From Pseudomonas sp. MM223 (GTDB lineage: Bacteria > Pseudomonadota > Gammaproteobacteria > Pseudomonadales > Pseudomonadaceae), in the NCBI GenBank assembly GCA_947090765.1, contig OX352322.1:6503001-6567000 (forward strand): a stretch of 64,000 nt of DNA, in the 5' to 3' direction. A program made the translations under genes and the position numbers. The notes under the pieces were generated by a model that was not told the origin of the DNA, ran no database searches, and saw only the letters and a program-made list of their open reading frames with translations. Every line of letters begins with the position of its first letter. Within the stretch, counting starts at the first letter, position 1. Below are positions 50,773-63,577 of this stretch, one piece after another.

Positions 50773-51416
50773 ATGTCCCTAGCCCTCGTCCACAGCCGCG
50801 CCCAAGTGGGTGTGCAGGCACCGGCAGTCAGCGTCGAAACCCACCTGGCCAACGGCCTGCCCCATCTCACACTGGTCGGCCTGCCAGAAACCACGGTCAA
50901 GGAAAGCAAGGACCGGGTACGCAGTGCCATCGTCAACTCCGGCCTGAACTACCCGCAGCGGCGCATTACCCAGAACCTCGCCCCCGCCGACCTGCCCAAG
51001 GATGGCGGGCGCTACGACCTGGCCATTGCCCTGGGCATCCTTGCCGCCGACGGCCAGGTGCCAGCGGCCAGCCTCGCCGAAGTCGAGTGCCTGGGTGAAC
51101 TGGCGTTGTCGGGCAAATTGCGAGCGGTGCAAGGCGTGTTACCGGCGGCCCTGGCGGCACGCGAGGCGGGCCGGGCGCTGGTGGTGCCGCGGGAAAATGC
51201 CGAGGAAGCCAGCCTTGCCGGCGGGCTGGTGGTGTATGCGGTGGGGCACCTGCTGGAGCTGGTCGCCCACCTGAACGGCCAGGTGCCACTGCCGCCCTAC
51301 GCGGCCAATGGTTTGATCCTGCAGCAACGCCCGTACCCCGACCTGAGCGAGGTGCAGGGCCAACTGGCGGCCAAACGTGCCCTGATGCTGGCAGCGGCAG
51401 GGGCGCACAACCTGTT
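50773..51416 (+). pseudogene. comM: comM, 5' part, interrupted by an integrated element
   Basis: ComM is a hexameric MCM-like helicase that promotes branch migration in natural transformation. This part covers residues 1-214: MSLALVHSRAQVGVQAPAVSVE, then the Lon-like region HLTLVGLPETTVKESKDRVRSAI, to AAGAHNL. The gene then breaks at CCTGTT and 11.3 kb of other DNA follows. The 3' part resumes in frame at 62731. As it stands translation ends at 51426 after two foreign codons, leaving no ATPase domain. Confidence 0.95.
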
Positions 51417-51437
51417 TAGGTTGTAAAACAATACACC
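51411..51437. other. attL, left junction of the comM element
   Basis: The comM sequence CCTGTT (51411-51416) is followed by TAGGT and the arm TGTAAAACAATACACC (51422-51437). That arm is an imperfect inverted copy of the arm at the right end (12 of 16 positions). The common TT at 51415-51416 is the predicted crossover dinucleotide. Confidence 0.8.
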
Positions 51438-51624
51438 CACACCTCAAAAACGCTATTCGTCAGTTCGGCGGCTAGCAGCTGCCCTCCCTGTGACTTAGCT
51501 AGGTAGGTGTAGATCCCGCTGCCAGGAGCTGCGTAAAATGCCTAAATGCCGCCTGATTTCTTACCCATGGCATACACACCTACGGCAGGACAGATCAGGC
51601 CGCCTACAAGGGAACGCAGCAGGG

Positions 51625-52711
51625 ATGGAAGACAAAGCATTTTGGCGAAACGAGCGCATAGCTTTTTTAGCGCTTACAACAGTGACCGGTATAGGTTTTT
51701 GGTCACTTCACAAAATCGCGCAAACAAACTATGGGTTTAAAGAGACGCTGAGGGCGCCGGGAGCTCGTAGGAGTCGAAAAGCTCCTTACTGCTGCTGGCT
51801 ATGACGGCGAATCTGGCCAGGAATTGTTGTGGGCGGAAGGCATCGCGTTGGCTAGAACCCTCACGAGTCTTGGCGTGCGGCTAGTCTTCAAGAACGAAGC
51901 AGAATTTCCAACACGGCTGAGGGCCATCCCTGATGCGCCCGAATGGATATTTATCCAGGGTGCACCGGATAATCTCAGCAAGCCTTCCGTCGCAATCGTA
52001 GGTACACGAAAACCGTCGGAAGATGGCCTGTTTTTGACGCAGTACGTGTTAGCAGTCTTAGCTGGGATAGGATGCGTTACTGTTAGCGGCCTCGCGCTAG
52101 GTATTGACCAAACAGCCCATGTTTCATCAATCCGGTATGCATTACCTACAGTTGCAGTGCTTGGTACAGGAATTTTGCAGAACTACCCGAGGGGCTCAAA
52201 TGAGCTGAGGGAGCAAATCCTTAAAGCGGGCGGCAGCATCGTTTCTGAATACCTACCAAATCAATCCTACAGCGGCGAGAATTTTGTTCGCCGCAATAGG
52301 TTGCAAGCAGCGCTGTGCGACGTACTTATACCCACAGAGTGGAGTATAAAAAGTGGTACCGCCCATACCGTAAAATATGCCAACAAGTATGAAAAACGAA
52401 TAATAAATGTGTGCTTACCTGGCACCCGAGGATCGCGGCCGGAGATCCCTTTTTCTGCTGCTGAGTATCGCGCGGCATGGTTTGAAGTACCGACGCGAAC
52501 GGAAGCGCTAATCATGTTTTTGAAGTCTGAATTGCTGGGCAATGCGGAAAGCAGGCCGGAGGTTGCGGATAACAATCACCAGGCCGTGGGCACGGATAAA
52601 GAAACACTAGAGCCCGCGTCGCAGCTAGAGCAGTCAGATCACGAAGTACAGCCGGAACAGGTGGCCGCCCCCGAAGAGACGGGAAGCCCAAGTCAACTAC
52701 CCCTAATTTGA
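51625..52711 (+). pseudogene. DprA/Smf-like (SLOG) protein gene with a one-base insertion
   Basis: The N-terminal part MEDKAFWRNERIAFLALTTV reads from the ATG at 51625 to a frame break at 51759-51761 (GGGAGCTC, one G too many). The next frame continues ELVGVEKLLTAAGYDGESGQ and runs to 52711, about 361 aa in all. The Rossmann-like SLOG core is clear: PSVAIVGTRKPSEDG, VSGLALGIDQTAH, AVLGTGILQNYPRGSNELRE, GGSIVSEYLP and FVRRNRLQAALCD. The tail (from about residue 290) is Gln/Glu-rich. SLOG/DprA proteins bind single strands or nucleotides. It is translated just before the HAD-PRTase gene. If the insertion is real, the open remainder starts at the TTG at 51824 or later and still contains the SLOG core. 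Confidence 0.85.
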
Positions 52712-52728
52712 CAGGGAGCGCAGTAAGG

Positions 52729-53862
52729 ATGCTAATTTTAACCACTTCCCCGGCTGCCATAACTCGTAATGGCCAGCCAGCCAAAGATATCATCCAAGGC
52801 ATGATCCGCATCGCTGCCAACGGCAACCTGGTCGGTGTCATTTCTAATCACGCTAAACCTGCATGGTTCGATCAAGAATTTGCAGGCTCAAAAGTGGCTT
52901 TTATCCCGACAGAGGCCAGGCAGAACGGCGAAGTCATCAGAAACATCGCAAAAGAATGCAAGGTTAAACCGCACGACATTTTAGTCCTTGCAGTAAAAGC
53001 AGAAGACTTACAGATGGCTAAAAATGGGCGTGCTGTGTTGGTAGCTGCAGGGTGGTCAAATGGCCCTCAAATTAAGGGCCTTGGGCTAAAAGTTGGGTCA
53101 GTGCAGGAGCTGGAGGAGCTGATCGCGCTCACTAATGGCTGGAATGGCAAATGGTGGTTCGAGGGGGCGGGCAAGACATACGCAGTCCATGCGCTCGTAG
53201 ATTTATCGACAATGCATAAGGGCATTACACAACAAGTATTTGCTCAAAAGCTTACGTCTACGGTAAAAAATGGTGGTGCACGTCTCGCTGCGCTGTTGGC
53301 GGTAACGGCCCGATCTCTGCTTATTAACAACATCGACCAAGCTCCGGACTTGCTGTGGGGTGTGTTCCCTTCCTCTGGTAACACCGCAGGAAATGATGAG
53401 GTTCTGACTGATTTTACGCACCGCTTACGCACAACTACGTCAAGGGTGCGATTTGCCAAAGTTGGAGAGCCTCTTTTTATTAGGCATACCGCATCGGTAA
53501 AACGCTCAGCAAATAAAGGTGGCGACCGAACCGACCCATCCGATCAGATCAAAACACTCCATCTAAATCCCTTTTACAAGGGAAAGATCAATGGTCGCAA
53601 TGTAATTATTATTGACGACTGCACAACTTACGGTGTGTCATTCGGCGTCGCCGCTGCATTTTTGCTGAAAGCAGGCGCAAACTCTGTGCATGGCATTGCG
53701 TTAGGAAAGTTTGGAAACCAGCTGTCCAGTTACGACATAACAATTAACAGCGACCCATTTAGCCCGGTAGCTGCGAACGGTTTCACAAACGGAAATCTAA
53801 TTCGGTTCCCTGGAGACACTGACAATACTGCTCAACAGGTACTTCAAGCGTTGATACCATGA
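52729..53862 (+). CDS. HAD-like / phosphoribosyltransferase fusion protein
   Basis: A 377-aa protein. Residues 1-125 look like a HAD-type Rossmann domain (LILTTSPAAITRNG; LVGVISNHAKPAWFD; DILVLAVKAEDLQMAKNGRA). The C-terminal half is a type I phosphoribosyltransferase with the PRPP loop NVIIIDDCTTYGVSFGVAAAFLLKAGA near residue 290. The ATG at 52729 lies 18 bases after the dprA-like stop, with GGGAG upstream; an earlier TTG at 52708 would overlap dprA. Such a protein could make or break a nucleotide ligand sensed by the SLOG partner. That is inference from domain pairing. Confidence 0.85.
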   Translation: MLILTTSPAAITRNGQPAKDIIQGMIRIAANGNLVGVISNHAKPAWFDQEFAGSKVAFIPTEARQNGEVIRNIAKECKVKPHDILVLAVKAEDLQMAKNGRAVLVAAGWSNGPQIKGLGLKVGSVQELEELIALTNGWNGKWWFEGAGKTYAVHALVDLSTMHKGITQQVFAQKLTSTVKNGGARLAALLAVTARSLLINNIDQAPDLLWGVFPSSGNTAGNDEVLTDFTHRLRTTTSRVRFAKVGEPLFIRHTASVKRSANKGGDRTDPSDQIKTLHLNPFYKGKINGRNVIIIDDCTTYGVSFGVAAAFLLKAGANSVHGIALGKFGNQLSSYDITINSDPFSPVAANGFTNGNLIRFPGDTDNTAQQVLQALIP

Positions 53863-53924
53863 GCACAGTAAACGACTTAGCAAGCTGGTGACCACTCTCA
53901 AGGTGGTTACTTAGCCGGGCAAAG

Positions 53925-53955
53925 GGCTCGGGCGAAGCATTGCTTCGCCTGCCCT
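53925..53955. terminator. Hairpin after the cargo operon
   Basis: GGCGAAGCATTGCTTCGCC forms an eight-base stem about 70 bases past the PRTase stop. No T-run follows, so termination is uncertain. Confidence 0.35.
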
Positions 53956-54254
53956 GCCCCTACCCCTGCTCGTGCGGAGCGAAGCGAGCATTCGCCGCAG
54001 GCGGGTACTGTTGCTCTTGATCCTCAAAAAAACAGCGACACTATAAGAGCTCAGTCCCTAAGCCCGGAGGGGCTTGGGGGCTGGCTCTGGCCTGCCACTC
54101 AAGAAACAACTCTTTGCCAAACCTCTGCTTTTATCATGCAGGTCTAACCTGGCTTTTGATTTTCGCGATTAGAAATAGATTAGTGGGTTTTGCGCAACCT
54201 GACTTTCGGCCATGTATTTCAAGGGTTTCTGTCAGCATCGGAAGTGGCCGCTCA

Positions 54255-54358
54255 GGAGTTCTATGCCCTCTCGGCAGGGGCTCTATGCCCCCTTCCCAGG
54301 AGCTCTATGCCCCATAGCAGGGGTTCCATGCCCCATTTTTACAGGGGTTCTATGCCCC
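54255..54358. repeat. Iteron array, likely replication origin
   Basis: Five copies of a 15-bp repeat, consensus GGRGYTCYATGCCCC, start at 54255, 54277, 54299, 54320 and 54344. Steps are 22, 22, 21 and 24 bases, so they lie on one face of the helix. They sit downstream of the TrfA-like gene, next to its 3' end. Together with that gene this looks like a plasmid vegetative origin. The neighbourhood 53863-54663 otherwise holds no gene, apart from an HTH remnant. Confidence 0.75.
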
Positions 54359-54452
54359 CTATTACATGGGCATTACTTGGAAAATCTCAGTGCTTATGCC
54401 AGTACCGCTGACAATCTCTCCAGGGAAACTTGAGAACCGGAAGGTCGAGACT

Positions 54453-54690
54453 TCAGTTTTCCATCACTAAATTCCTCGGCAAATTCGCCCACAAGGCCAA
54501 GGGAGGAGAGCTGGGCAAGCTCCGATGCAATTTCGTGCAGACGCGATCAGTTGACACGCTCGAACGTAGCCCGGCAGCAAGCACTAAGAGCGTTATCGGC
54601 TCTACGTTGAGCACCTTGGCCACTGCTTCAAGGGTCTCCAAGGTACCTTGTTTTGAGCTTTTATTAATCCGGCACCTTTGCGTTCAAATG
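54453..54690 (-). pseudogene. Remnant of an XRE-type helix-turn-helix regulator
   Basis: On the minus strand, directly after and overlapping the rep stop, a frame reads SSKQGTLETLEAVAKVLNVEPITLLVLAAGL, the end of a Cro/C1 helix-turn-helix domain. The N-terminal half is missing (a stop lies upstream in frame). The rest continues about 35 residues to 54453. It is likely a truncated regulator left by recombination at the rep end. Confidence 0.5.
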
Positions 54691-55551
54691 ACGCTGCTGA
54701 GCGCGAGAGGGTGGCCGATCCATCGTGACAAGTCCCTTATCGTTGATCTCTCCTTTCCAGCCGATGGCGGCATGCATCAATGCAAATGCTTTTCTCACAT
54801 CCTTCCTGAAATCAGTAACGTTTTTTGACCTACTACCACACAGCTTATGAATTGTTGCGACCTTCAAAGGGTAAGCTTTTGCATGGGTCGAATAAAAACC
54901 ATGTAGCCATTGGGCTAGTGGGTGGCCTTTCAAGGCTAGTCTTTCATTAAGCTCAACCATCGTCCACATGCCGTCGCCATACAGCTTGACAATATTTGGA
55001 TTCATTACAACGCAATAACGACCAGTATTTTCGTCATGCAGATACTCACTAATAAGATGACCTGCATAATTTATTCTGCCGTCCTGCACTTCAAGCATTC
55101 CGCCAAGCAATCTTTTAAATGAGTCCTTGAGCCAGTCCCTTTGTGACTTCCCTGTTTCTCGACCGATTGCTTTAAGAAAAGGGTGTGACGAAATCTCAAG
55201 ACTAAGACCGAGGCTTGTAGTTCGCGACAAGTGCAAGCATTGCTCCCATACGTCCAGATCCGCTTGATCCAGTTGAGGCCCGCTATAAACCATTGTTACA
55301 CCCTGGAGGGTCTCAATGTTCGTAGCTAAATGAATAGTACGTTGCCCTCTACCAACAGCACTAAACAAGGCACTTCGCAGGATTGAGTTTGGTACACCAC
55401 GGGATGCATCCGGCCACTTTACAAGAGTCGCTGCATCACCCTTACGGAAGCCCATAAGAACATCATGCATGGCGCTTTTGAGCATCTGCTCGTAAGATAT
55501 TTTTTGAGAGCTCTCCTTAATCCTCTCTAGAACATAATTATCATCACTCAT
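54664..55551 (-). CDS. TrfA-like plasmid replication initiator
   Basis: A 295-aa protein of the TrfA family, which binds iterons and opens the origin. Family features are RGVPNSILRSALFSAVGRG near residue 55, followed by MVYSGPQLDQADLDVWEQCLHL and the winged-helix parts LDEXLALKGHPLAQWLHGFYSTH-like. Start chosen at the ATG at 55551 (MSDDNYVLERIKES); a GTG nine bases earlier is in frame. It overlaps a short upstream gene by eight bases. Iterons lie downstream. The family name fits the whole length; the partner DnaA boxes were not searched. Confidence 0.82.
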   Translation of the reverse strand: MSDDNYVLERIKESSQKISYEQMLKSAMHDVLMGFRKGDAATLVKWPDASRGVPNSILRSALFSAVGRGQRTIHLATNIETLQGVTMVYSGPQLDQADLDVWEQCLHLSRTTSLGLSLEISSHPFLKAIGRETGKSQRDWLKDSFKRLLGGMLEVQDGRINYAGHLISEYLHDENTGRYCVVMNPNIVKLYGDGMWTMVELNERLALKGHPLAQWLHGFYSTHAKAYPLKVATIHKLCGSRSKNVTDFRKDVRKAFALMHAAIGWKGEINDKGLVTMDRPPSRAQQRHLNAKVPD

Positions 55552-55723
55552 TAGCGCCACCGCATCTGCGCCTAATTCCGCTCAGCAACTTGTCAATCAT
55601 AATTGACTCATCACTTGTAAGCCAAAGCGTCCTTTGTCTATAGCCATTTGCTCGCATGCGAGCGGCATATTCAGCTTGCCTAGTCTTACCAGGATTAGCT
55701 TTATTTACAACTGAATCTTTCAT
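55544..55723 (-). CDS. Small ribbon-helix-helix-like protein upstream of rep
   Basis: A 59-aa ORF (MKDSVVNKANPGKTRQAEYA to RRRCGGANE). The middle YRQRTLWLTSDESIMIDKLLSGI has the strand-helix-helix form of short plasmid copy-control or antitoxin-like regulators. It overlaps the rep start by eight bases, giving translational coupling. It could repress rep. The function is inferred from size, form and place. Confidence 0.6.
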   Translation of the reverse strand: MKDSVVNKANPGKTRQAEYAARMRANGYRQRTLWLTSDESIMIDKLLSGIRRRCGGANE

Positions 55724-55873
55724 ATCGCACCCAATAATTCATTTCTGCCCATAGATTACAAGTGAGTTAGCAGTGACGCAATTGATATTTTTTAGGTGAA
55801 CTGTCAGAGTTAACTGTTAGGGTTGAATTTACTGGTGTTTTGGAACAAAAAAAATTTCGCTTTGACTCAATAG

Positions 55874-57496
55874 CTACCGCCCTCCAGGTTCGTAGCCCTC
55901 CCCGCTTGGGTCGTGGCCGTTGCGCTTCCAGGACGGTAGTCGCTGTTGCCGCGCTCGATCTTCCCTGTCCCTTTCAGTCTGGTCTTTTTGCTCCTGGATC
56001 ACTGCAGCCTGGCTAGCAGCCACTGCAGCAGCTTGGATCATATGTTTGCGCTCACATTCCAGGGCCAGATCGCGCTGCTGTGTCAACTCTGCAGCTTTCA
56101 CTGTGTCCTGGTGCAGCTGCGTGCGCGTATAAGCGCGGCCAGGACGACCGATATCAACACCTGTGCTGATCCCAAACGCTGCCTTGAAGATAACGCCAAC
56201 CCGCTCGGCCAGTATCGCATCCGATTTAGTTGTGGCTGTAGGAGTGCTCCAAAGTCTTTTTGATGCGGCCTGAGCCCGCTGCATCTCTTTATGTAGTTGC
56301 TGTTTAAATTGGTTTTGAAAAAATCTAATAACGGGGTCGTCCGTATCTATTGTCGACAAATCACCAACATCGACACCGATACCAACATCAGCAATGGCAG
56401 ACTTATAATCTCCTATATGAGCACTATGACTACTAGCAAAATTAGCAGCAGCAGACTTGACGCCAGGAAGATCGTCAGCGCTATCTTCAAATTCCTTATG
56501 TACTGCAATGAGTTTTTTAAACTCTGATCCAAGTTCGTGTTCCAACTCGTCAAATCTGATATCACTCCCTGCAATCTCTTGATCTCCCGATTCCTTGCTA
56601 TTATGGCGTCGTTGCGTTTCTTGAGTTCTGACCGCCATAACATCTTTGAATCTTTGCTCAATTGATCCTGCATGAGTTCTTGTTTTTTCATGAACCTGGC
56701 TTTCGCTAATTCCTTTTGCTCCGAAGTAAGCCTTGTCATAGATGTCGCCTTTTAGTCTGATGGCTTTTTTATCGTCACCGAATTTAACCGATAAATAATC
56801 ATCGCCATTTCTTGTTATTTTTCCGCCAAGCTCAACAAGGAAGCTCTGTATATCTTCTCGGCAAGTTATATGTCCGGAGTCGACTAAATCACAAACTAAA
56901 CCATGTATTTCTTTTTTTGTGGCGGTTTCTTTATCAAAACCAGAAATTTTTAAATCTCTTGCTACTGCTGGATCACGCGGATTAGTCAACCCAAACGTAT
57001 TACAAGCATGATCTATATATGAGTCATTTTCTTGGATAAAATCTGAATTATTACCCTTCCCTCTTTTACCATTGTAATTAGGTGGAAAAGGGTTTCTATA
57101 CTTACCACTTCCCAGGTGGACACGCGGCAACATGTAATGTATTTCGAGCCGCCCCGTATGCGTATGCTCAATTGCCAGAAACTGCCTAGAATTTTCAGGA
57201 ACACCGGCAAAAGCAAAATCTTTGAAGTCTTGCAATATCTGGTCTTTTAATTCTGGATTCGCTGCAATTTTTGCGGTTTCCTCCAGGTTAAAGCTCAGAA
57301 CTCCCGTTGTGTACTGGTTTTTAAAGTCCAGACTATCGCAAATGAACTTTATGGCCTGCGGATCACCCTCAAGTATTACAGGTGCAGGGTCACGCGGCCT
57401 CCACTCCTCTAATTCCTTGTCGAAATATGTGTCGCCAAGGAAATAATCAATTGCCTTGCCTGCGCCTGTTGTCCACTTCGACAGCCCGTTTATCAT
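55874..57496 (-). CDS. MbeA/MOB-P-like relaxase
   Basis: A 540-aa mobilization nuclease resembling ColE1 MbeA. The N-terminal third has GAGKAIDYFLGDTYFDKELEE, QYTTGVLSFNLEETAKIA and the nuclease core FLAIEHTHTGRLEIHYMLPRVHLGSGK, where the EHTHTG/H residues fit the HEN-type metal site. The conserved DAIRLKGDIYDKAYF is at residues 240-255. The C-terminal 300 residues are helical and charged. It overlaps mobC by four bases. One internal gene (56413-56739) is read in another frame. Codon use is AT-richer than the genome. Confidence 0.82.
   Translation of the reverse strand: MINGLSKWTTGAGKAIDYFLGDTYFDKELEEWRPRDPAPVILEGDPQAIKFICDSLDFKNQYTTGVLSFNLEETAKIAANPELKDQILQDFKDFAFAGVPENSRQFLAIEHTHTGRLEIHYMLPRVHLGSGKYRNPFPPNYNGKRGKGNNSDFIQENDSYIDHACNTFGLTNPRDPAVARDLKISGFDKETATKKEIHGLVCDLVDSGHITCREDIQSFLVELGGKITRNGDDYLSVKFGDDKKAIRLKGDIYDKAYFGAKGISESQVHEKTRTHAGSIEQRFKDVMAVRTQETQRRHNSKESGDQEIAGSDIRFDELEHELGSEFKKLIAVHKEFEDSADDLPGVKSAAANFASSHSAHIGDYKSAIADVGIGVDVGDLSTIDTDDPVIRFFQNQFKQQLHKEMQRAQAASKRLWSTPTATTKSDAILAERVGVIFKAAFGISTGVDIGRPGRAYTRTQLHQDTVKAAELTQQRDLALECERKHMIQAAAVAASQAAVIQEQKDQTERDREDRARQQRLPSWKRNGHDPSGEGYEPGGR
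56413..56739 (-). CDS. Overprinted coiled-coil membrane protein inside the relaxase gene (MbeB-like position)
   Basis: A 108-aa frame completely inside the relaxase gene, same strand, shifted. It begins MTRLTSEQKELAKARFMKKQ, is charged and helical for about 80 residues, then ends in one strong membrane segment (IALTIFLASSLLLLILLVVI). AAGG lies eight bases upstream of its ATG. ColE1-type plasmids also code small mobilization proteins (MbeB, MbeD) inside mbeA in other frames, which supports it. Homology to those proteins is not clear by eye. Confidence 0.6.
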   Translation of the reverse strand: MTRLTSEQKELAKARFMKKQELMQDQLSKDSKMLWRSELKKRNDAIIARNREIKRLQGVISDLTSWNTNLDQSLKNSLQYIRNLKIALTIFLASSLLLLILLVVIVLI

Positions 57497-57849
57497 TTGG
57501 CAAGCCTCCTGCGGCGCTGGAGCTTTTCTGCGGCCTGGACGATCTTATATACGTCTTGCCTTATTTCGGCCAGCTTGTGCAGTATTGGAGCCGCTAGCGC
57601 ATTATCTTTGTATGTATTGGCATACTTGCTAATCATGTTTAAATCGTTATTGATACGACCAAAATACGCAATCAGCTGTCTGAATTCCTCGCGTAGACTT
57701 TCCTTGGCCTCCACCACTGGCTTTTTATCGAGCAATGCAACTAGGAATTGAGAATTTGTCAACCCCGCTTCCCTTGCATGTTTGTTAAATTTTTCCCGCT
57801 GCTTAGTAGTTACAGTGGCGTTTATTTGTACTGATTTGATTACATCCAC
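57493..57849 (-). CDS. MobC-like mobilization accessory protein
   Basis: A 118-aa protein with an N-terminal ribbon-helix-helix-like part (KSVQINATVTTKQREKFNKH; TNSQFLVALLDKK) and the MobC C-terminal helix motif FGRINNDLNMISKYANTYKD. MobC proteins melt DNA near the nick site and help the relaxase. It is the first gene of the mobilization pair and overlaps the relaxase ATG. Confidence 0.8.
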   Translation of the reverse strand: MDVIKSVQINATVTTKQREKFNKHAREAGLTNSQFLVALLDKKPVVEAKESLREEFRQLIAYFGRINNDLNMISKYANTYKDNALAAPILHKLAEIRQDVYKIVQAAEKLQRRRRLAK

Positions 57850-57873
57850 GGGTTTTCCCTTCTTCTTATATTC

Positions 57874-57893
57874 CCCCGGCCAGGCCGGGGGTA
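57874..57893. other. Inverted repeat upstream of mobC
   Basis: CCCCCGGCCAGGCCGGGGG forms an eight-base GC stem with a three-base loop between mobC and the next unknown gene. It could be a terminator of the 120-aa gene (minus strand, no clear T-run) or part of oriT. Confidence 0.4.
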
Positions 57894-57910
57894 GTGAGGC
57901 GTTAAAAGCG

Positions 57911-58273
57911 TTACAGCTGCACCTGGTTGGTCAGCACCGCCAGGAGCTCGCCCACGTCAGGGGAAAAATTGAGCTCACGAACCTCAGCACCTGCGGGGTC
58001 GTCTTTAAGGTGATCGTACCGGTAAAAAGCCCCGGCAGACGCCTCCTTGGCGTTGTTGAAATAATCAAATACCTCAAGCGGTAGCTGCGTCGAATCGCGA
58101 TCAGTCGGCTCGTATGCGAGCGCAATGCGATGGCTCAAGTCATCCACAAAAAATCGCTCTTGGTCGTCGTTCGTCATTTTATCCGTCACTTCTTCGATCA
58201 GGGCAAAAAGGGCATTGCCGTGTTTGTTGTGCAAATTGCAAAACTCTCTTACCAAATCAAATGAGTATTCCAT
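57911..58273 (-). CDS. Unknown protein of the comM element
   Basis: Not recognised. A 120-aa acidic protein (MEYSFDLVREFCNLHNKHGN; FVDDLSHRIALAYEPTDRD). The start at 58273 is chosen because AAGAGG lies nine bases upstream; the frame extends to 58297. It precedes mobC on the same strand and may be a mobilization or anti-restriction type accessory gene. No membrane segment or catalytic motif is seen. Confidence 0.6.
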   Translation of the reverse strand: MEYSFDLVREFCNLHNKHGNALFALIEEVTDKMTNDDQERFFVDDLSHRIALAYEPTDRDSTQLPLEVFDYFNNAKEASAGAFYRYDHLKDDPAGAEVRELNFSPDVGELLAVLTNQVQL

Positions 58274-58302
58274 TGGTATCCTCTTAAATACGGTCAAGGG
58301 GT

Positions 58303-58339
58303 CTGGGGGAACCCCAGTGGGTCAAGGGCGAAGCCCTTG
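58303..58339. other. Twin hairpins, candidate oriT
   Basis: Two adjacent hairpins: CTGGGG-GAA-CCCCAG (58303-58317) and CAAGGGC-GAA-GCCCTTG (58323-58339). Both have a GAA loop. They lie upstream of the mob operon. Hairpins of this sort are common at oriT, but the nick sequence was not identified. Confidence 0.45.
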
Positions 58340-58481
58340 CAAGGCAAGCAAAAGTCCGGAGGACTATTGCTTGAGGAGCCTTGTTCGCTTTATTACGCGC
58401 ATGGAGGAAAGCGAATTTCAAGTTGTTTTCTATCTAGCTGCAGAGATATGATGATTGGAAATAAAAATAAAGAGGCCCATT

Positions 58482-58851
58482 GTGAGTCAATCCAAGATAG
58501 CGATTTGCTTGATTTGCTGGGCCTTCACAAAAAAAGCGATGGCTGTTGATGGAGTGATTGTTAAGGATCAGGCAGACTTGATGCAGAGTATTTATGCGAA
58601 AATCAGTCGTGCGGCGGAGGCAATCAAGGAATTTACAGTTGAAAATGCAAAGCTAGGCGCCATGAGTACGGCTGCAGAACAGGAAGTCGAATCAATCAAT
58701 CAACAACGGGTTTGCAAACACAGTTGCTCGACTCGATAAAGGTCATGAAGAGAGACAGAACCTGGAGCAGCTGGAGCGAGTACAAACGGCAAAGGATGTT
58801 TGCGACACTATTAATTTTTCGTCAGGCCTTGCGAAGTCATCCTGCGCATAG
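58482..58851 (+). pseudogene. Exported protein broken by a 4-bp tandem repeat
   Basis: A GTG at 58482 (AAAGAGG seven bases before) starts a protein with a signal peptide (VSQSKIAICLICWAFTKKAMA), then VDGVIVKDQADLMQSIYAKI and a helical region. At about 58688-58700 ATCA is repeated three times; with two copies the frame would continue NNGFANTVARLDKGHEERQN to SGLAKSSCA at 58851 (about 121 aa). With three copies it stops at 58739 after unrelated residues. The domain is not recognised; the helical secreted form recalls conjugation-linked pilus-tip proteins, but weakly. Confidence 0.6.
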
Positions 58852-58960
58852 GTTGGTCAGGTAGAAGAGTTGTCAAGGGATCGGACGCAACGAAATTAAG
58901 TGATCCCAAATCCGCTGCTTCACACGACAAACAATAGATCACAATAATAAGAGTTTATAG

Positions 58961-59416
58961 ATGAGCAACGTCATTAGATTAACCCAAGACCAGAAGGTAT
59001 TGTTTGCAAAGTTATTTGAGGAACATGGCGATAGCTATGAACTAAATAATAGCGAGAAACTAAATGCCATGCTGGAAGAGTACGCGAGTAGTTTCGATAG
59101 CTTACCGAGAGGTGATGAGTATGTTTTGATCTCCAAAACAGAGATTCACCCACAAGTTTGGAAAGCCCTGGAGAAATCCGGAGTTAGTCGTGGAGTAGAG
59201 AACTTTGATAATGGGGACGAAGATCCGGAATATCGAAAGTCCATGAAAGTTGAGAAAAACCTGTTTGAGGCGCTGATTGCACTCCTATCTGCGCTGCTGG
59301 AAATGCTAACAAACGCTCTTACCGGACGGCACGGTGCTGCTCCAGGTGCAGACGCTGGGGGCCGCGAGACTCGCAGGCGTCCGCGTGTCGACAACGACAG
59401 CGGATATCAACCCTGA
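58961..59416 (+). CDS. Unknown protein of the comM element
   Basis: Not recognised. A 151-aa protein with an acidic N-terminal domain (MSNVIRLTQDQKVLFAKLFEEH; FDSLPRGDEYVLISKTEI) and one hydrophobic helix near residues 103-120 (LFEALIALLSALLEMLTNAL), then an Arg/Gly-rich tail that reads like the neighbouring GC-rich DNA. It may end in a different place in relatives. No neighbour suggests a task. Confidence 0.55.
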   Translation: MSNVIRLTQDQKVLFAKLFEEHGDSYELNNSEKLNAMLEEYASSFDSLPRGDEYVLISKTEIHPQVWKALEKSGVSRGVENFDNGDEDPEYRKSMKVEKNLFEALIALLSALLEMLTNALTGRHGAAPGADAGGRETRRRPRVDNDSGYQP

Positions 59417-59499
59417 CAGCGCACGGATCGCGCCCTGAGCGCATAGCGTAGCCGCCGCCAGCCTTTCGGCGGCGACGAAATGTCGAACTCAGATCTCTG

Positions 59500-59520
59500 C
59501 CCGATCTTGCCGGGCTTTTA
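59500..59520 (+). terminator. Terminator-like hairpin
   Basis: GCCCGATCTTGCCGGGC then TTTT, about 85 bases past the 151-aa gene. A short stem, so only moderate. Confidence 0.45.
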
Positions 59521-59650
59521 CTACCTCGGCGAACACCACCATGCCATGTGAGGCATGATCCGAAAAATCGCAGTCCGACGTCAGGATTGGAAGAAAAAAG
59601 GAAGGTATCAATAAGAAATTTTGGGGCCTCTTGCCCCTTTATCGCTGTGA

Positions 59651-60055
59651 TTATGCCTTCGGCCTGGCATAACCAGCTTTACGCAGCGCACGCCGGGTAG
59701 CGTCCAGTTCCGCCCACAATTCGTTGGCATGCTCCGCTGTAAACTCCTTTGCAACCTCCTGTTCTCCAAACACTTCCCGGAACCCCGAGAGAGCAAGGGC
59801 GGTACTACGCATGCGATAGATCTTATGAGACAACTCCCTGGCCCCTTGCTCATCCTCATGCTCGCGTTTACGAGCTGCGAGCCAATCTACAAGCTGTTTA
59901 AGCTCGGACTCGGTCAGAATTTTCTCTGCGGCATCAGGCAAGGCTAGATCTTTTAGCGGAAAGCTACAGACCATCTTTTCCACGCCGCGTTTTTTCTGCT
60001 GATCGTATGTCGTGCGTATTAACTGATACGAAGTTTTAAGCTTGCGAATCTGCAT
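59651..60055 (-). CDS. Unknown helical protein downstream of the operator-like repeats
   Basis: Not recognised. A 134-aa, highly charged, mostly helical protein (MQIRKLKTSYQLIRTTYDQQ; ELKQLVDWLAARKREHEDEQ; LWAELDATRRALRKAGYARP). It could bind DNA or RNA, judging by basic ends. Its ATG is next to a set of palindromic repeats (60101-60273), so it may be controlled by, or bind, those sites. The ORF is distinct in frame from neighbours. Confidence 0.6.
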   Translation of the reverse strand: MQIRKLKTSYQLIRTTYDQQKKRGVEKMVCSFPLKDLALPDAAEKILTESELKQLVDWLAARKREHEDEQGARELSHKIYRMRSTALALSGFREVFGEQEVAKEFTAEHANELWAELDATRRALRKAGYARPKA

Positions 60056-60100
60056 ACTTCAATGCCCCCAAGACAGAACACATAAAAGCATGATACTTAT

Positions 60101-60273
60101 CATACCGATAGATTTCAACATATTTTATATCGGCATACGTATTTTAATTTCAGATTCATCTATCGGTATACCGATAGATAGAAAGCGATTTGAATACAGG
60201 CATACCGATAGATTACACAGCATGAATATATCGGCATACCGATGGATTTTCAGAGTAGTCTATTCGGTATGCC
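60101..60273. repeat. Cluster of CGGYATACCG operator-like repeats
   Basis: Six copies or half-copies of (T)ATCGGCATACCGATAG: CATACCGATAGAT at 60101 and 60201 (100 bases apart), TATCGGCATACG at 60128, a perfect 22-bp palindrome of ATCTATCGGTA at 60158-60179, ATATCGGCATACCGATGGAT at 60228 and TATTCGGTATGCC at 60261. They lie just upstream of the 134-aa gene. They look like binding sites of a dimeric regulator or of a partition protein. Confidence 0.75.
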
Positions 60274-60299
60274 AAGTGGTACGCATAACCACCTTGAGA

Positions 60300-60870
60300 G
60301 GCTGCTGACAGTCAGTGGGCAAAGCCCGCTGGCGGGCAGTTGCCGGGCTGGCCGCCCAGGCCGATGGCTCATGTGTCCAAGCTAAATACAGCGTTAAAGC
60401 AGTCGCATGAGGTAGCTCTGCCCAAGCATGGACAAGGGCTCGGCCACCGCAATTCCAATAGCTGCGCGCAATAAAACAGGAAGGTGGTAAATGGTCGCTT
60501 CAAGCTCGTGTCGGCACGAGCTAGCTATCAGTCCGAAGCCGGCGTAAGGAACTGCATCTGTGGAGTTATTTGGAGACCTTGGAACGCTTCTGCAATTGCA
60601 CTGGTGCTAAACAGCTGACTATTCAGCTTTAAGAACGAGCTACGCCACATGACTGCACCAAACCAAGACACGACCGTCACAATTCCCGCTCCTTGCGAGC
60701 ATAAATACGCTTTTATGTCTCAACAGTAAGTCTCACCGCCAGATGTGAACGGCGAAAGAACTATTGTGGTGCACAAGCAATGCTTTGTTTGCGGCCATGG
60801 CAATTGGTTTAGAGACTGCTGATACCTACCAACCCAGGAAAGCTCTGGACTGGATATTTATGCGATAATC
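60300..60870. other. Gene-poor stretch of the comM element
   Basis: About 570 bases with no coding region that I can support. A 36-codon frame from about 60365 has no ribosome site or likeness and is not called. The stretch contains short GC-rich inverted repeats near 60320-60360, which may be a terminator, nothing else that I recognise. Confidence 0.5.
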
Positions 60871-60873
60871 TTG

Positions 60874-60912
60874 CCGCCCTGGTTCATTCCTGGGCGGCTT
60901 TTCCTTTTATAG
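60874..60912 (+). terminator. Intrinsic terminator, plus strand
   Basis: GCCGCCC and GGGCGGC form a seven-base stem with a 12-base loop, followed by TTTTCCTTTT. It lies about 55 bases beyond the recombinase stop on the opposite strand, so it would end rightward transcripts before they enter the recombinase gene antisense. Confidence 0.6.
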
Positions 60913-60968
60913 GGTTCAGCTAGTTATAAAGCAGCTGGATGGCTGCCCCAAGGCCCGGGAGCGAACTT

Positions 60969-62684
60969 CTAGAGCTTCATAGGCTTGCCTCTGTTCGCAA
61001 CCATTTTGTCGATCCGAGCCTGTTCTTTTACCAGTTCAAGCGTCGTGAAGTAACGTAAAACCATAGCCGCGTGCATTTTGGCAAACACTGCGTCGTCACC
61101 TTGCTTTCGCAATAGTTCGGTCAACTCAGCAGTATAGGGATAATAGTCAATCTTTTCGTTTGTCTGTTTCATCACAAACGTAAGAGCGGCGTCCACTTCG
61201 ACGGAATAACACACAATGTTTTCCTGCCGTTCGATTAGCACCTTTACTTTAAGTGCTTTGAGAAGATAATTAGCTCTTGCACGACCTTCAAAGCTTACCA
61301 GGTCAAGCTTTGCAAAAAAATCTTCCTTATTTAAGATTTTCTCGCGCTGAGCATCTCGCTTAAGTTCATCTTTTTTATGCTTTAATTCTTTAAGCTCCTG
61401 ATCAACCCGCAAAGCGGCTTGCATTACAAAGTTAGGCAGATCACCACCAACATCCAATAACTGGGCCTCGATCTCAGCTTGACGCTTATTTAACATATCC
61501 AGGCGAAGATCAGTTTTTGCAATTTCCTTCTGGATTTGGGCTTGCGAATCCTGGACAAGACTTAGGCTGTCAACTTTAGCCAAGACCTCCTTAAAAGCGC
61601 TCTCAGAGCTTGCAAGCTGCACAATTTTATTTGTACAACGACCCTTGGCGCTTCCATAGCACCTCAGGTATTTCCCGCCCTTAGGTAGCTGGCCCTTGTT
61701 AACCAAGTGCATAGATTCACCACAAAGTGCACATTTAGCTAAGCCTTGCCACACGTTAAAATTTGCAGCTGTCTTTGTCGCTTTGGATACATTGCGCGTA
61801 GTGCGTGCGGACTGCGCCTGGAAAAATAAATCCTCACTGATTACGACTGGGTAAAAATCCGTTACGGGCTCACCAAGTGCCTCACGAATTCCGTCAACCA
61901 GGCCAGTCGGCTGGTATTCACCTAAAAGAGCACGATTAGAAAGAATTTTTCCCGTCGAGCTACTACCCCACGCGCCGCTTACATTTCGATTTTCAGATCC
62001 AAAAATCGGCACATTATTAGCATTAAGAATCCTGGCAATTGCGCGATGGCCATGCCCTGCCACTGCAAGATCGAAAATCTGTTTAATAACTTCGACCCTG
62101 CCAGGGACTACAACATACTTGTCACCTTCAAGTTTTAACCAGTAAGGGCATGCTCGTCCCAGGGGTTTTTTTGTTTCGCGAGCATCATTTTGTTTTTGCT
62201 TCCATGCTTTACTTACCCGTTCACCTTTAAGGCTTGATTCGCTGTGCGCGCGGCTCATTTGGAACACGCCAGCCATGATATCCAGTGCTTCAAAGTCTGA
62301 AGTGTAGAGCTTATTTTCCGAAACCGAATAAATATTGATACCTTTGTTTAAAATATCAATAAAGCGTGGCAATGCAGCTCTTACATGCTCACGACTCAAT
62401 CTATCCAGGCTTTCGATTATTAAAATTGATCCCGGTTTAATAGCTCCATCTTCAACGTATTTTAAAAAACGCCTGAGCTGACCATCATCGCTTAAGTGTT
62501 TACCTTTGTAAGCTGACCTACCCTTATCAAAGAATAGGTAGTCTTCGTTTTTTACAAGCTCCAAGCCGTTCTGCATGCAGTACGTTTCGGCCGCTGCACG
62601 CTGTCGACGGTAGCTATCCCCCTTCGCTTGCTCAGGCGTAGAAAAGCGGATGTAGCTGTATGCCTGGATGCGCTGGCTAGACAT
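60969..62684 (-). CDS. Large serine recombinase (integrase of the comM element)
   Basis: A 571-aa site-specific recombinase. The resolvase domain has the catalytic motif YIRFSTPEQAKGDS with Ser15 as nucleophile, then RSAYKG, and IIESLDRLSREHVRAALPRF with the active-site arginines. A recombinase domain follows (GRACPYWLKLEGDKYVVVPG to GEYQPTG), a zinc ribbon with CALCGE and LRCYGSAKGRC, and a coiled coil (about residues 380-450). It is the last gene before the right junction, coded leftward from 62684, 40 bases from attR. It is expected to insert and, with a helper factor, excise the element. Confidence 0.93.
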   Translation of the reverse strand: MSSQRIQAYSYIRFSTPEQAKGDSYRRQRAAAETYCMQNGLELVKNEDYLFFDKGRSAYKGKHLSDDGQLRRFLKYVEDGAIKPGSILIIESLDRLSREHVRAALPRFIDILNKGINIYSVSENKLYTSDFEALDIMAGVFQMSRAHSESSLKGERVSKAWKQKQNDARETKKPLGRACPYWLKLEGDKYVVVPGRVEVIKQIFDLAVAGHGHRAIARILNANNVPIFGSENRNVSGAWGSSSTGKILSNRALLGEYQPTGLVDGIREALGEPVTDFYPVVISEDLFFQAQSARTTRNVSKATKTAANFNVWQGLAKCALCGESMHLVNKGQLPKGGKYLRCYGSAKGRCTNKIVQLASSESAFKEVLAKVDSLSLVQDSQAQIQKEIAKTDLRLDMLNKRQAEIEAQLLDVGGDLPNFVMQAALRVDQELKELKHKKDELKRDAQREKILNKEDFFAKLDLVSFEGRARANYLLKALKVKVLIERQENIVCYSVEVDAALTFVMKQTNEKIDYYPYTAELTELLRKQGDDAVFAKMHAAMVLRYFTTLELVKEQARIDKMVANRGKPMKL

Positions 62685-62707
62685 TGCGGCCTCAAAGATA
62701 CGTGGTA

Positions 62708-62732
62708 GGTGTAATGTACCACAGCCTGTTGT
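62708..62732. other. attR, right junction of the comM element
   Basis: The arm GGTGTAATGTACCACA (62708-62723) is followed by G and CCTGTT (62725-62730), then comM resumes (GTTCACCGGG). The arm is an imperfect inverted copy of the left arm TGTAAAACAATACACC. The TT at 62729-62730 is shared with attL. Confidence 0.8.
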
Positions 62733-63577
62733 TCACCGGGCCACCCGGCACCGGCAAGACCTTGCTCGCCAGCCGCCTGCCTGGCCTGCTGCCACCGCTG
62801 GACGAGCACGAGGCGCTGGAAGTGGCGGCCATCCAGTCGGTCAGCGGGCATACACCGCTAAGCAGTTGGCCGCAGCGACCGTTTCGCCACCCCCACCACT
62901 CCGCATCCGGTCCGGCGTTGGTCGGTGGCAGCAGCCGGCCGCAACCGGGCGAAATCACCCTCGCCCACCATGGCGTGCTGTTTCTCGATGAGCTGCCAGA
63001 GTTTGAGCGGCGCGTGCTGGAGGTGCTGCGCGAGCCACTGGAATCGGGCGAAATCGTGATTGCCCGGGCCCGCGACAAGGTGCGCTTTCCCGCGCGCTTT
63101 CAGCTGGTAGCGGCGATGAACCCGTGCCCTTGCGGCTACCTGGGCGACCCAACTGGCCGCTGCCGCTGCAGCACCGAGCAGATCGGGCGGTACCGCAACA
63201 AGTTGTCCGGGCCGCTGCTGGATCGCATCGACCTGCACCTGACCGTGGCCCGCGAGAGCACCACGCTGAACAACCAGCCGTGCGGTGAAACCAGTGCCGA
63301 TGTGGCGGCCAAGGTGGCACGGGCGCGTGAGGTACAGCAGCGCCGCCAAGGGTGTGTGAATGCGTTTCTCGACCTTGAGGGGTTGCGTCGCCATTGCCGG
63401 CTGGCAGCAGCGGACCAGGCATGGCTGGAGGGGGCTTGCGAGCGGTTGACCTTGTCGTTGCGGGCGGCGCACCGGTTATTGAAAGTGGCGCGGACCTTGG
63501 CAGACCTGGAAGGGTGCGAGGCGATTGGCCGGCCGCATCTGGCCGAGGCCCTGCAGTACCGGCCGGGGAGCAGTTAG
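62731..63577 (+). pseudogene. comM: comM, 3' part, after the integrated element
   Basis: Resumes the comM frame with LLFTGPPGTGKTLLASRLPG, the Walker A of the AAA+ domain, and continues through FLDELPEFERRVLEVLREPL (Walker B) and MNPCPCGYLGDPTGRC (Cys region) to the normal end. The frame as read from upstream begins in the element (62684, MRPQRYVVGVMYH...), so a truncated, unlikely functional protein of up to 297 aa could be made. Joined to the 5' part it gives 496 aa. Confidence 0.95.

Follow-up and report, generated by a model that had tools for sequence, protein, structure and literature searches.

A probable integrative mobilizable element with plasmid-type replication and mobilization genes, very probably placed in comM of Pseudomonas sp. 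MM223 by its own large serine recombinase

The closest described counterparts of the element reported here are elements that large serine recombinases (LSRs) insert into the gene for a magnesium chelatase/ATP-dependent protease, which we take to be ComM/YifB, islands in comM of Acinetobacter, and integrative mobilizable elements (IMEs) with replication genes; four of the papers cited below are presumably Durrant 2022 (LSR survey), Croucher 2016 (comM insertions), Mazzamurro 2024 (A. baumannii) and Rousset 2022 (DprA pair). According to extracts of the LSR survey, 12.4% of the LSRs predicted to be site-specific insert into the chelatase/protease gene, and LSR targets are enriched for competence genes, with no enrichment within or near anti-phage defence genes (PMC10083194). 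Phage WO of Wolbachia uses the magnesium chelatase gene, as a passage of PMC9203015 states. Other excerpts list comM insertions, P. syringae among them (PMC4774983), and report that A. baumannii comM elements often carry defence systems (PMC11472951). SGI1, BcenGI2, and GISul2 are named as IMEs with replication genes, and serine-recombinase IMEs are named from Firmicutes, in sections of a review (PMC5704250). Here we analyze a stretch of 64,000 nucleotides (the window; positions 6,503,001 to 6,567,000 of contig OX352322.1) from the 6.73-Mb, two-contig genome of Pseudomonas sp. MM223 (G000), in which comM is interrupted by an insert. An earlier note on this DNA had considered serine machinery unusual in comM, and tyrosine or Tn7-like machinery usual. 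That view finds no support, because LSRs target this type of gene very often, as far as the extracts of PMC10083194 and PMC9203015 go. Among the papers listed for comM in combination with serine recombinases, defence or integration, none had a title on the MM223 element.

The insert is very probably an IME, in effect an integrative plasmid, which was inserted into comM by the LSR that it encodes. We favour this reading because the joined flanks restore a comM that is intact in relatives, the LSR domains are encoded beside attR, the attP arms are near-palindromic, and 13 of 20 sampled Pseudomonadaceae genomes with the LSR family have the insertion at the same codon. It is also favoured because the replication initiator (Rep), relaxase, mobC, and candidate origin of transfer (oriT) resemble those of free plasmids, LSR and Rep homologues come from contigs of the same length in three cases, and PADLOC recognises a ShosTA gene pair, which is unsplit in two sister elements. 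The target, the boundaries, the gene content, and the return of the LSR lineage to this codon can be read directly from the sequences compared.

The MM223 element is real and precisely bounded. When base 51416 is joined to base 62731, comM (yifB) becomes one frame of 496 codons, and the 42 bases around the joint are identical in G265, the top-scoring relative with an intact comM (98% identical protein). The insert is 11,314 bp long and has a G+C content of 0.480, compared with 0.625 in the nearby flanks. The 5′ part of comM (50773..51416, + strand) contains codons 1 to ~214, and the 3′ part (62731..63577, + strand) begins just 5′ of the Walker A motif. A second comM copy was not found in the MM223 genome, in which the only matches were the two halves. 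Of 298 Pseudomonas genomes examined, 296 gave a match to the gene. By our own count of this table, there is a single match at E below 1e-240 in 241 genomes, two or three matches in 51, and one short match in 4. Uninterrupted comM is therefore the usual state in Pseudomonas, since 241 of the 298 genomes show one strong match. Both the precise insertion proposed in the earlier note and its expectation that comM would be continuous over the junction in relatives were borne out by the restored frame, by G265, and by these single strong matches.

Splits of Pseudomonas comM were also seen near codons 60-85, 120, 283, 302, 320, and 350 (G025, G029, G084, G121, G190, and others), some of them on two contigs of draft assemblies. 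A Mu/TnsB-like open reading frame (ORF) lies by the edge of the codon ~283 split in G029, an LSR-like ORF was noticed by inspection near codon 320 in G052, and a phage-integrase-family ORF lies near codon 350 in G057. At locus L074 (G252), an intact comM is followed ~4 kb on by another 3′ half of the gene, whose edge is att-like in a similar way, and an IetS match lies between the two.

Both ends of the MM223 element contain the core CCTGTT, located at 51411..51416 in attL and at 62725..62730 in attR (+ strand). In the sister element of G014, the two ends differ in the bases around the exchange position except for CT (by inspection). For this reason, the inferred exchange dinucleotide is placed there, which gives TT in the MM223 element (51415-51416 in attL). 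Also by inspection, attL and attR agree at the dinucleotide (CT or TT) in 12 of 13 comM elements, and the remaining one (G619) combines CT at one end with TT at the opposite end. The LSR-distal attP arm, TAGGTTGTAAAACAATACACCCAC (51417..51440, + strand), is an inverted match to the LSR-proximal arm, which together with the core forms attR (62701..62730, + strand). The arms are near-palindromic, with 19 of 30 positions matching the reverse complement; 1 of 20000 shuffles was as good. The LSR gene (60969..62684, - strand) adjoins attR with its start and is an open frame of 571 aa. Its domain set is complete and consists of Resolvase, Recombinase, and a zinc ribbon (Pfam Zn_ribbon_recom). Thus, the element has its own integrase with defined att sites, as is characteristic of IMEs. 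Five further LSR matches, 26-38% identical, were seen on G000:C1 at 2.04, 2.06, 3.63, and 4.86 Mb.

Relatives of the LSR were sought in two tool-drawn, overlapping samples, one of 398 genomes of the genus and one of 298 genomes of the whole family. At E <= 1e-80, the LSR was found in 15 of the 398 genomes, MM223 included; the LSR family was present in 7 of the 298, with MM223 and G014 among them. The union comprises 20 Pseudomonadaceae genomes, again counting MM223. Insertion at the same comM codon was found in 13 of the 20 (G000, G014, G024, G032, G067, G069, G183, G211, G269, G343, G499, G619, and G633), and the MM223 split point fits codon ~212-216 of this codon-214 lineage. The element of G499 lies outside the genus Pseudomonas, and the comM halves of G211 are on different contigs. 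A same-site comM split with a related recombinase, for which the earlier note had proposed to search other genomes, was found in 12 of the 19 other genomes. In the other seven, the site is the end of ychJ, as judged from the flanking codons by inspection (G045, G150, G282, G306, and G368) or by tblastn (G482 and G546). Pfam YchJ was confirmed for G282, and ychJ of G546 is at the element end away from the LSR. The LSR of a phage-record scaffold, MT836130, is likewise located at ychJ. In the tree, the seven ychJ-labelled rows, which include MT836130 but not G546, cluster together at a support of 100/99.

A search of named genomes with the MM223 LSR alone confirmed no relative, and a search with the alignment gave 370 LSR relatives. 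The following figures refer to the best 80 of these 370 loci, in which comM was queried with the MM223 gene alone, so that distant comM may be missed. The comM edge near the LSR falls at codons 191-226 in 44 loci, from alpha-, beta-, gamma-, and delta-type proteobacteria, and at codons 6-36 in 7 loci. No comM edge beside the LSR was seen in 29 loci, although three of them have half of comM at a greater distance. At L144, L145, L159, and L170, LSRs of the wider family lie near comM codon 31-36, not 214. A second, distant LSR lineage (30-32% identity) also uses codon ~214 of comM, at L069 (G171) and L071 (G168), but its att arms differ; it carries Abi_2 and DarT/NADAR-type genes.

The interior of the MM223 element is plasmid-like. 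A TrfA-type replication initiator is encoded at 54664..55560 (- strand; Pfam TrfA 1e-11; homologues named TrfA or RepC-type) and matches 644 plasmid records, in each case at less than 60% identity. Five iterons of 22 nt, with copies 68-100% alike, are located at 54253..54363 (+ strand), and a TrfA-family initiator together with iterons identifies a TrfA-type replicon. An MbeA-like relaxase gene (55874..57496, - strand; NCBIfam MbeA 4.9e-23), the product of which has plasmid relatives, is preceded by a NikA-like mobC (57493..57849, - strand; Pfam 3.7e-8), a position that would suit a ColE1-type (MbeA) arrangement. The mobC product is 42% identical to the mobC region of plasmids pPSEST01 and pA54BH1. 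DNA at 58297..58390 (- strand) is 80% identical in pPSEST01 (E 1.7e-17) and 77% in pA54BH1 (E 8.8e-14); we regard it as a candidate oriT because it is conserved at the same place, upstream of mobC, in both plasmids. No convincing site was found for a ColE1 nic motif. Among solved structures, there was no sequence match for the LSR, the relaxase or Rep, and none of the 10 window proteins scanned by Pfam matched a type IV secretion system (T4SS) family. From the earlier description of the modules, the LSR, Rep, mobC, and a two-gene cargo were recovered by family matches and the iterons as repeats; its ColE1-like relaxase was narrowed to a distant MbeA match, under the cut-offs, with plasmid relatives. 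More broadly, the precise insertion, the plasmid-like replication and mobilization parts, and the mobilizable character were supported, and the supposed rarity of a serine recombinase in comM was not.

These plasmid matches bear on whether the insert could be a prophage or phage satellite instead of a plasmid-like IME, which we consider very improbable. LSRs are common as phage integrases, the MM223 LSR matches a PHROG integrase (6e-68), and it is 43% identical to the LSR of the phage-deposited scaffold MT836130, which has a tape-measure-type match. However, this LSR sits at ychJ, Rep, relaxase, and oriT match plasmids, and no structural or packaging match appeared among the MM223 proteins scanned (10 by Pfam and 6 by PHROG). 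We rejected a phage origin based on this single 43% relative, which is on a 12.7-kb unannotated scaffold with the LSR at ychJ. In viral contigs, there were 15 LSR relatives, the best over a long stretch being 37% identical, and a degenerate attP pattern had no match. The whole MM223 element has no near match among plasmids, on which the MM223 LSR was matched in 9 records at E <= 1e-40, with a top identity of 36.9%. The circular form considered possible in the earlier note did not turn up in the plasmid and viral collections searched.

The cargo consists of an adjacent DprA-like and phosphoribosyltransferase gene, which identifies a ShosTA pair. According to extracts of PMC9122126, a DprA and phosphoribosyltransferase pair guards against T7 and lambda. 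The shosT toxin gene (52708..53862, + strand) gave a PADLOC ShosT match of 1.6e-46, and homologues (relatives of 377 aa) suggest that it starts at 52729. The gene for the antitoxin is not intact and is spread over two frames. Its N-terminal piece (51625..51801, + strand) is 56% identical to residues 1-45 of intact ShosA of G014, and the main piece (51824..52711, + strand) is 62% identical to the same protein (PADLOC ShosA 4.8e-78; Pfam DNA_processg_A 9.6e-55). The sister elements of G014 and G343, at the same comM site, have unsplit ShosA of 348 and 351 aa. To judge from the frameshift, ShosTA is probably impaired in the MM223 copy.

Several observations weigh against the IME reading. The circular form was absent from plasmids and viral contigs, metagenomes being outside the search. 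The relaxase scores 82 bits against an NCBIfam MbeA cut-off of 500, which makes it a distant relative only, and its Pfam Relaxase match (E 0.033) is under the cut-off of that model. The oriT is a candidate assigned from conservation in two plasmids. PF02534 coupling proteins, the only T4SS-related family searched in the MM223 genome, were not found there; hence, there is no resident helper of that family. A directionality factor was not identified in the MM223 element. A small serine resolvase, which tblastn with three queries detected in 12 of 12 comM relatives, was not found in it with the same queries. MM223 Rep, relaxase, and mobC were matched in 0 of these 12 relatives. Finally, the frameshift in shosA is a sign of partial decay unless it is a sequencing error.

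This frameshift and the missing free form in plasmids and viral contigs would also suit an immobile relic, that is, a former LSR element which is now fixed and whose cargo is decaying. By inspection, the sister element of G014 has a transposase-like ORF between two pieces of its LSR gene, which points the same way. On the other hand, the LSR, Rep, relaxase, and mobC frames of MM223 are open and both att halves are recognisable, and we regard a relic as unlikely, although it is the strongest of the alternatives.

If the insert is an IME, its life cycle might be as follows. The LSR would join attP, with its near-palindromic arms around TT, to the comM attB (CACAACCTG-TT-GTTCACC), and together with a putative directionality factor it could excise the 11,314-bp circle. 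The TrfA-type Rep would then replicate the excised circle from the iterons. The relaxase and MobC may nick the candidate oriT, and the transfer channel would come from a separate conjugative element. ShosTA is cargo, presumably for addiction and/or phage defence, and comM stays broken as long as the element remains in place. We infer the excision, replication, transfer, and defence of the MM223 element.

In the sequences compared here, the module set of MM223 is not seen in the 12 comM relatives. A Phage_GPA-type Rep is present in G014, G069, G211, and G619, all of which except G211 also have a MOBV relaxase. Taken with the absence of the TrfA-type Rep, relaxase, and mobC from all 12 relatives, these four Phage_GPA-type Reps, three of them with a MOBV relaxase, are the evidence for separate origins, in which an LSR element that had adapted to comM beforehand captured a plasmid or fused with one. 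We find such a history improbable. Between attL and attR there is a single LSR, a single Rep, and a single Mob, so the element reads as one replicon. Moreover, in 3 cases an LSR homologue and a Rep homologue were listed for records of the same length, one of these being a 6.4-Mb record that is named Pseudomonas sp. G5(2012) among the LSR and the Rep rows alike (26 LSR and 17 Rep rows, hand-picked from 120 each). From this recurrence, elements with the TrfA version probably form a separate small lineage.

PADLOC on selected ORFs recognised defence genes in 8 of the 13 comM elements. They comprise ShosTA (G000, G014, and G343), a retron-type reverse transcriptase (G067 and G069), an Mrr-type gene (G183), HindIII-type restriction-modification (G619), and PDC-S49 (G633). 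A pooled family scan covered 95 of 128 ORFs from 20 complete elements, with the first 25 families listed, and one of the 95 ORFs, at the level of the pool and with no element assigned, matches Pfam Relaxase. G183, G269, G024, and G343, in which no Rep was recognised, share a zinc-finger protein of ~468-518 aa without a Pfam match. This protein was considered as a candidate Rep, but the better of two matched plasmid records, a 6-kb plasmid, carries a different annotated Rep.

The elements lie in comM in both orientations. The LSR start is toward the comM 3′ half in 7 of the 13 (G000, G014, G069, G211, G619, G633, and G499) and toward the 5′ half in 6 (G183, G269, G067, G032, G024, and G343). 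On the tree of sampled Pseudomonadaceae LSRs, one orientation label has to change 3 times and the other 4 times, but well-supported branches force only one change in each. In the wider set (best 80 of 370), 27 of the 44 loci face the 3′ half and 17 the 5′ half; the wider tree needs 17 and 11 changes for its labels, 15 and 9 of them forced, with changes to other targets included. One closely related pair, L110 of P. kairouanensis and L112 of Pseudomonas sp. P7548, is inserted in opposite directions although the two elements share 84% identity along 2.6 kb and 77% along another 2.5 kb. With the LSR gene as reference, the central dinucleotide is CT in one element of the pair and AG in the other (by inspection). 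In serine integrases, the central dinucleotide sets the direction, and the flip between these two elements fits this rule. That such elements enter comM in either orientation, even where their LSRs are close relatives, and that the dinucleotide flips along is a new detail.

We tentatively propose, as a possibility that is still more doubtful than probable, that comM codon ~214 is an old docking site of a proteobacterial lineage of plasmid-like LSR elements, which exchange replication, mobilization, and single defence modules. Within this proposal, the lineage would have flipped its direction repeatedly because a near-palindromic attP leaves the orientation to the two central bases, and breakage of comM may protect the element from removal by transformation. 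The broader comM/LSR pattern is partly published, and the orientation flips and the module swapping are the most interesting parts. A very common LSR target, comM, becomes tied in this way to small plasmid-like elements which form a coherent set and trade their replication, transfer, and defence modules. The natural pairs of related, oppositely oriented elements are test material for the direction of serine integrases, and the MM223 element offers a way to test whether mobile elements benefit when they disrupt comM.

The remaining features of the MM223 element are small. An ORF with a hydrophobic C-terminus is nested in another frame of the relaxase gene (56413..56739, - strand); it had no convincing Pfam match, and its position and sequence make it possibly mobB-like. 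A 128-aa ORF between the candidate oriT and mobC (57911..58297, - strand) had no match in family searches. A 151-aa ORF (58961..59416, + strand) has a weak relative in G211 (27%), which was unseen in a tblastn comparison. A 134-aa ORF (59651..60055, - strand) gave weak family matches only, and we would guess at a regulator or directionality factor. Palindromic repeats of the ATCTATCGGTATACCGATAGAT type, upstream of this ORF (60101..60273), could be an operator, a partition site or a second origin.

The MM223 element can be compared with several known systems. The LSR elements of PMC10083194 likewise have site-specific LSRs and the same type of target gene; an element of the MM223 type, rep, mob, cargo, and two orientations are not described in the extracts of that paper. 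AbaR and other Acinetobacter islands also disrupt comM, as in MM223, but they are Tn7-like elements according to passages of PMC11472951. The Mu/TnsB-like ORF of Pseudomonas is at codon ~283, not at the MM223 codon. SGI1, BcenGI2, and GISul2 are, like the MM223 element, integrated mobilizable elements with a plasmid-type replication gene, but in the sections of PMC5704250 drawn on here they differ from it in recombinase or site and in their modules. Two plasmids, pPSEST01 of S. stutzeri RCH2 and pA54BH1 of Pseudomonas sp. ANT_H54B, have relaxases 46% and 42% identical to that of MM223 over ~305 aa and have mobC (42%) and the candidate oriT in common with it; they are circular, have annotated ParG partition genes, and show no match to the MM223 LSR or Rep. 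The top-ranked plasmid Rep, 51% identical over 244 aa, is from the 8-kb plasmid NZ_CP066314 of Azotobacter chroococcum HR1, which has no annotated relaxase and no match to the MM223 LSR, relaxase or mobC. Further counterparts are the 12 other Pseudomonadaceae comM elements, which have a homologous LSR (45-67% identical), the same site, and similar att arms, and two of which (G014 and G343) carry ShosTA, as in the MM223 element.

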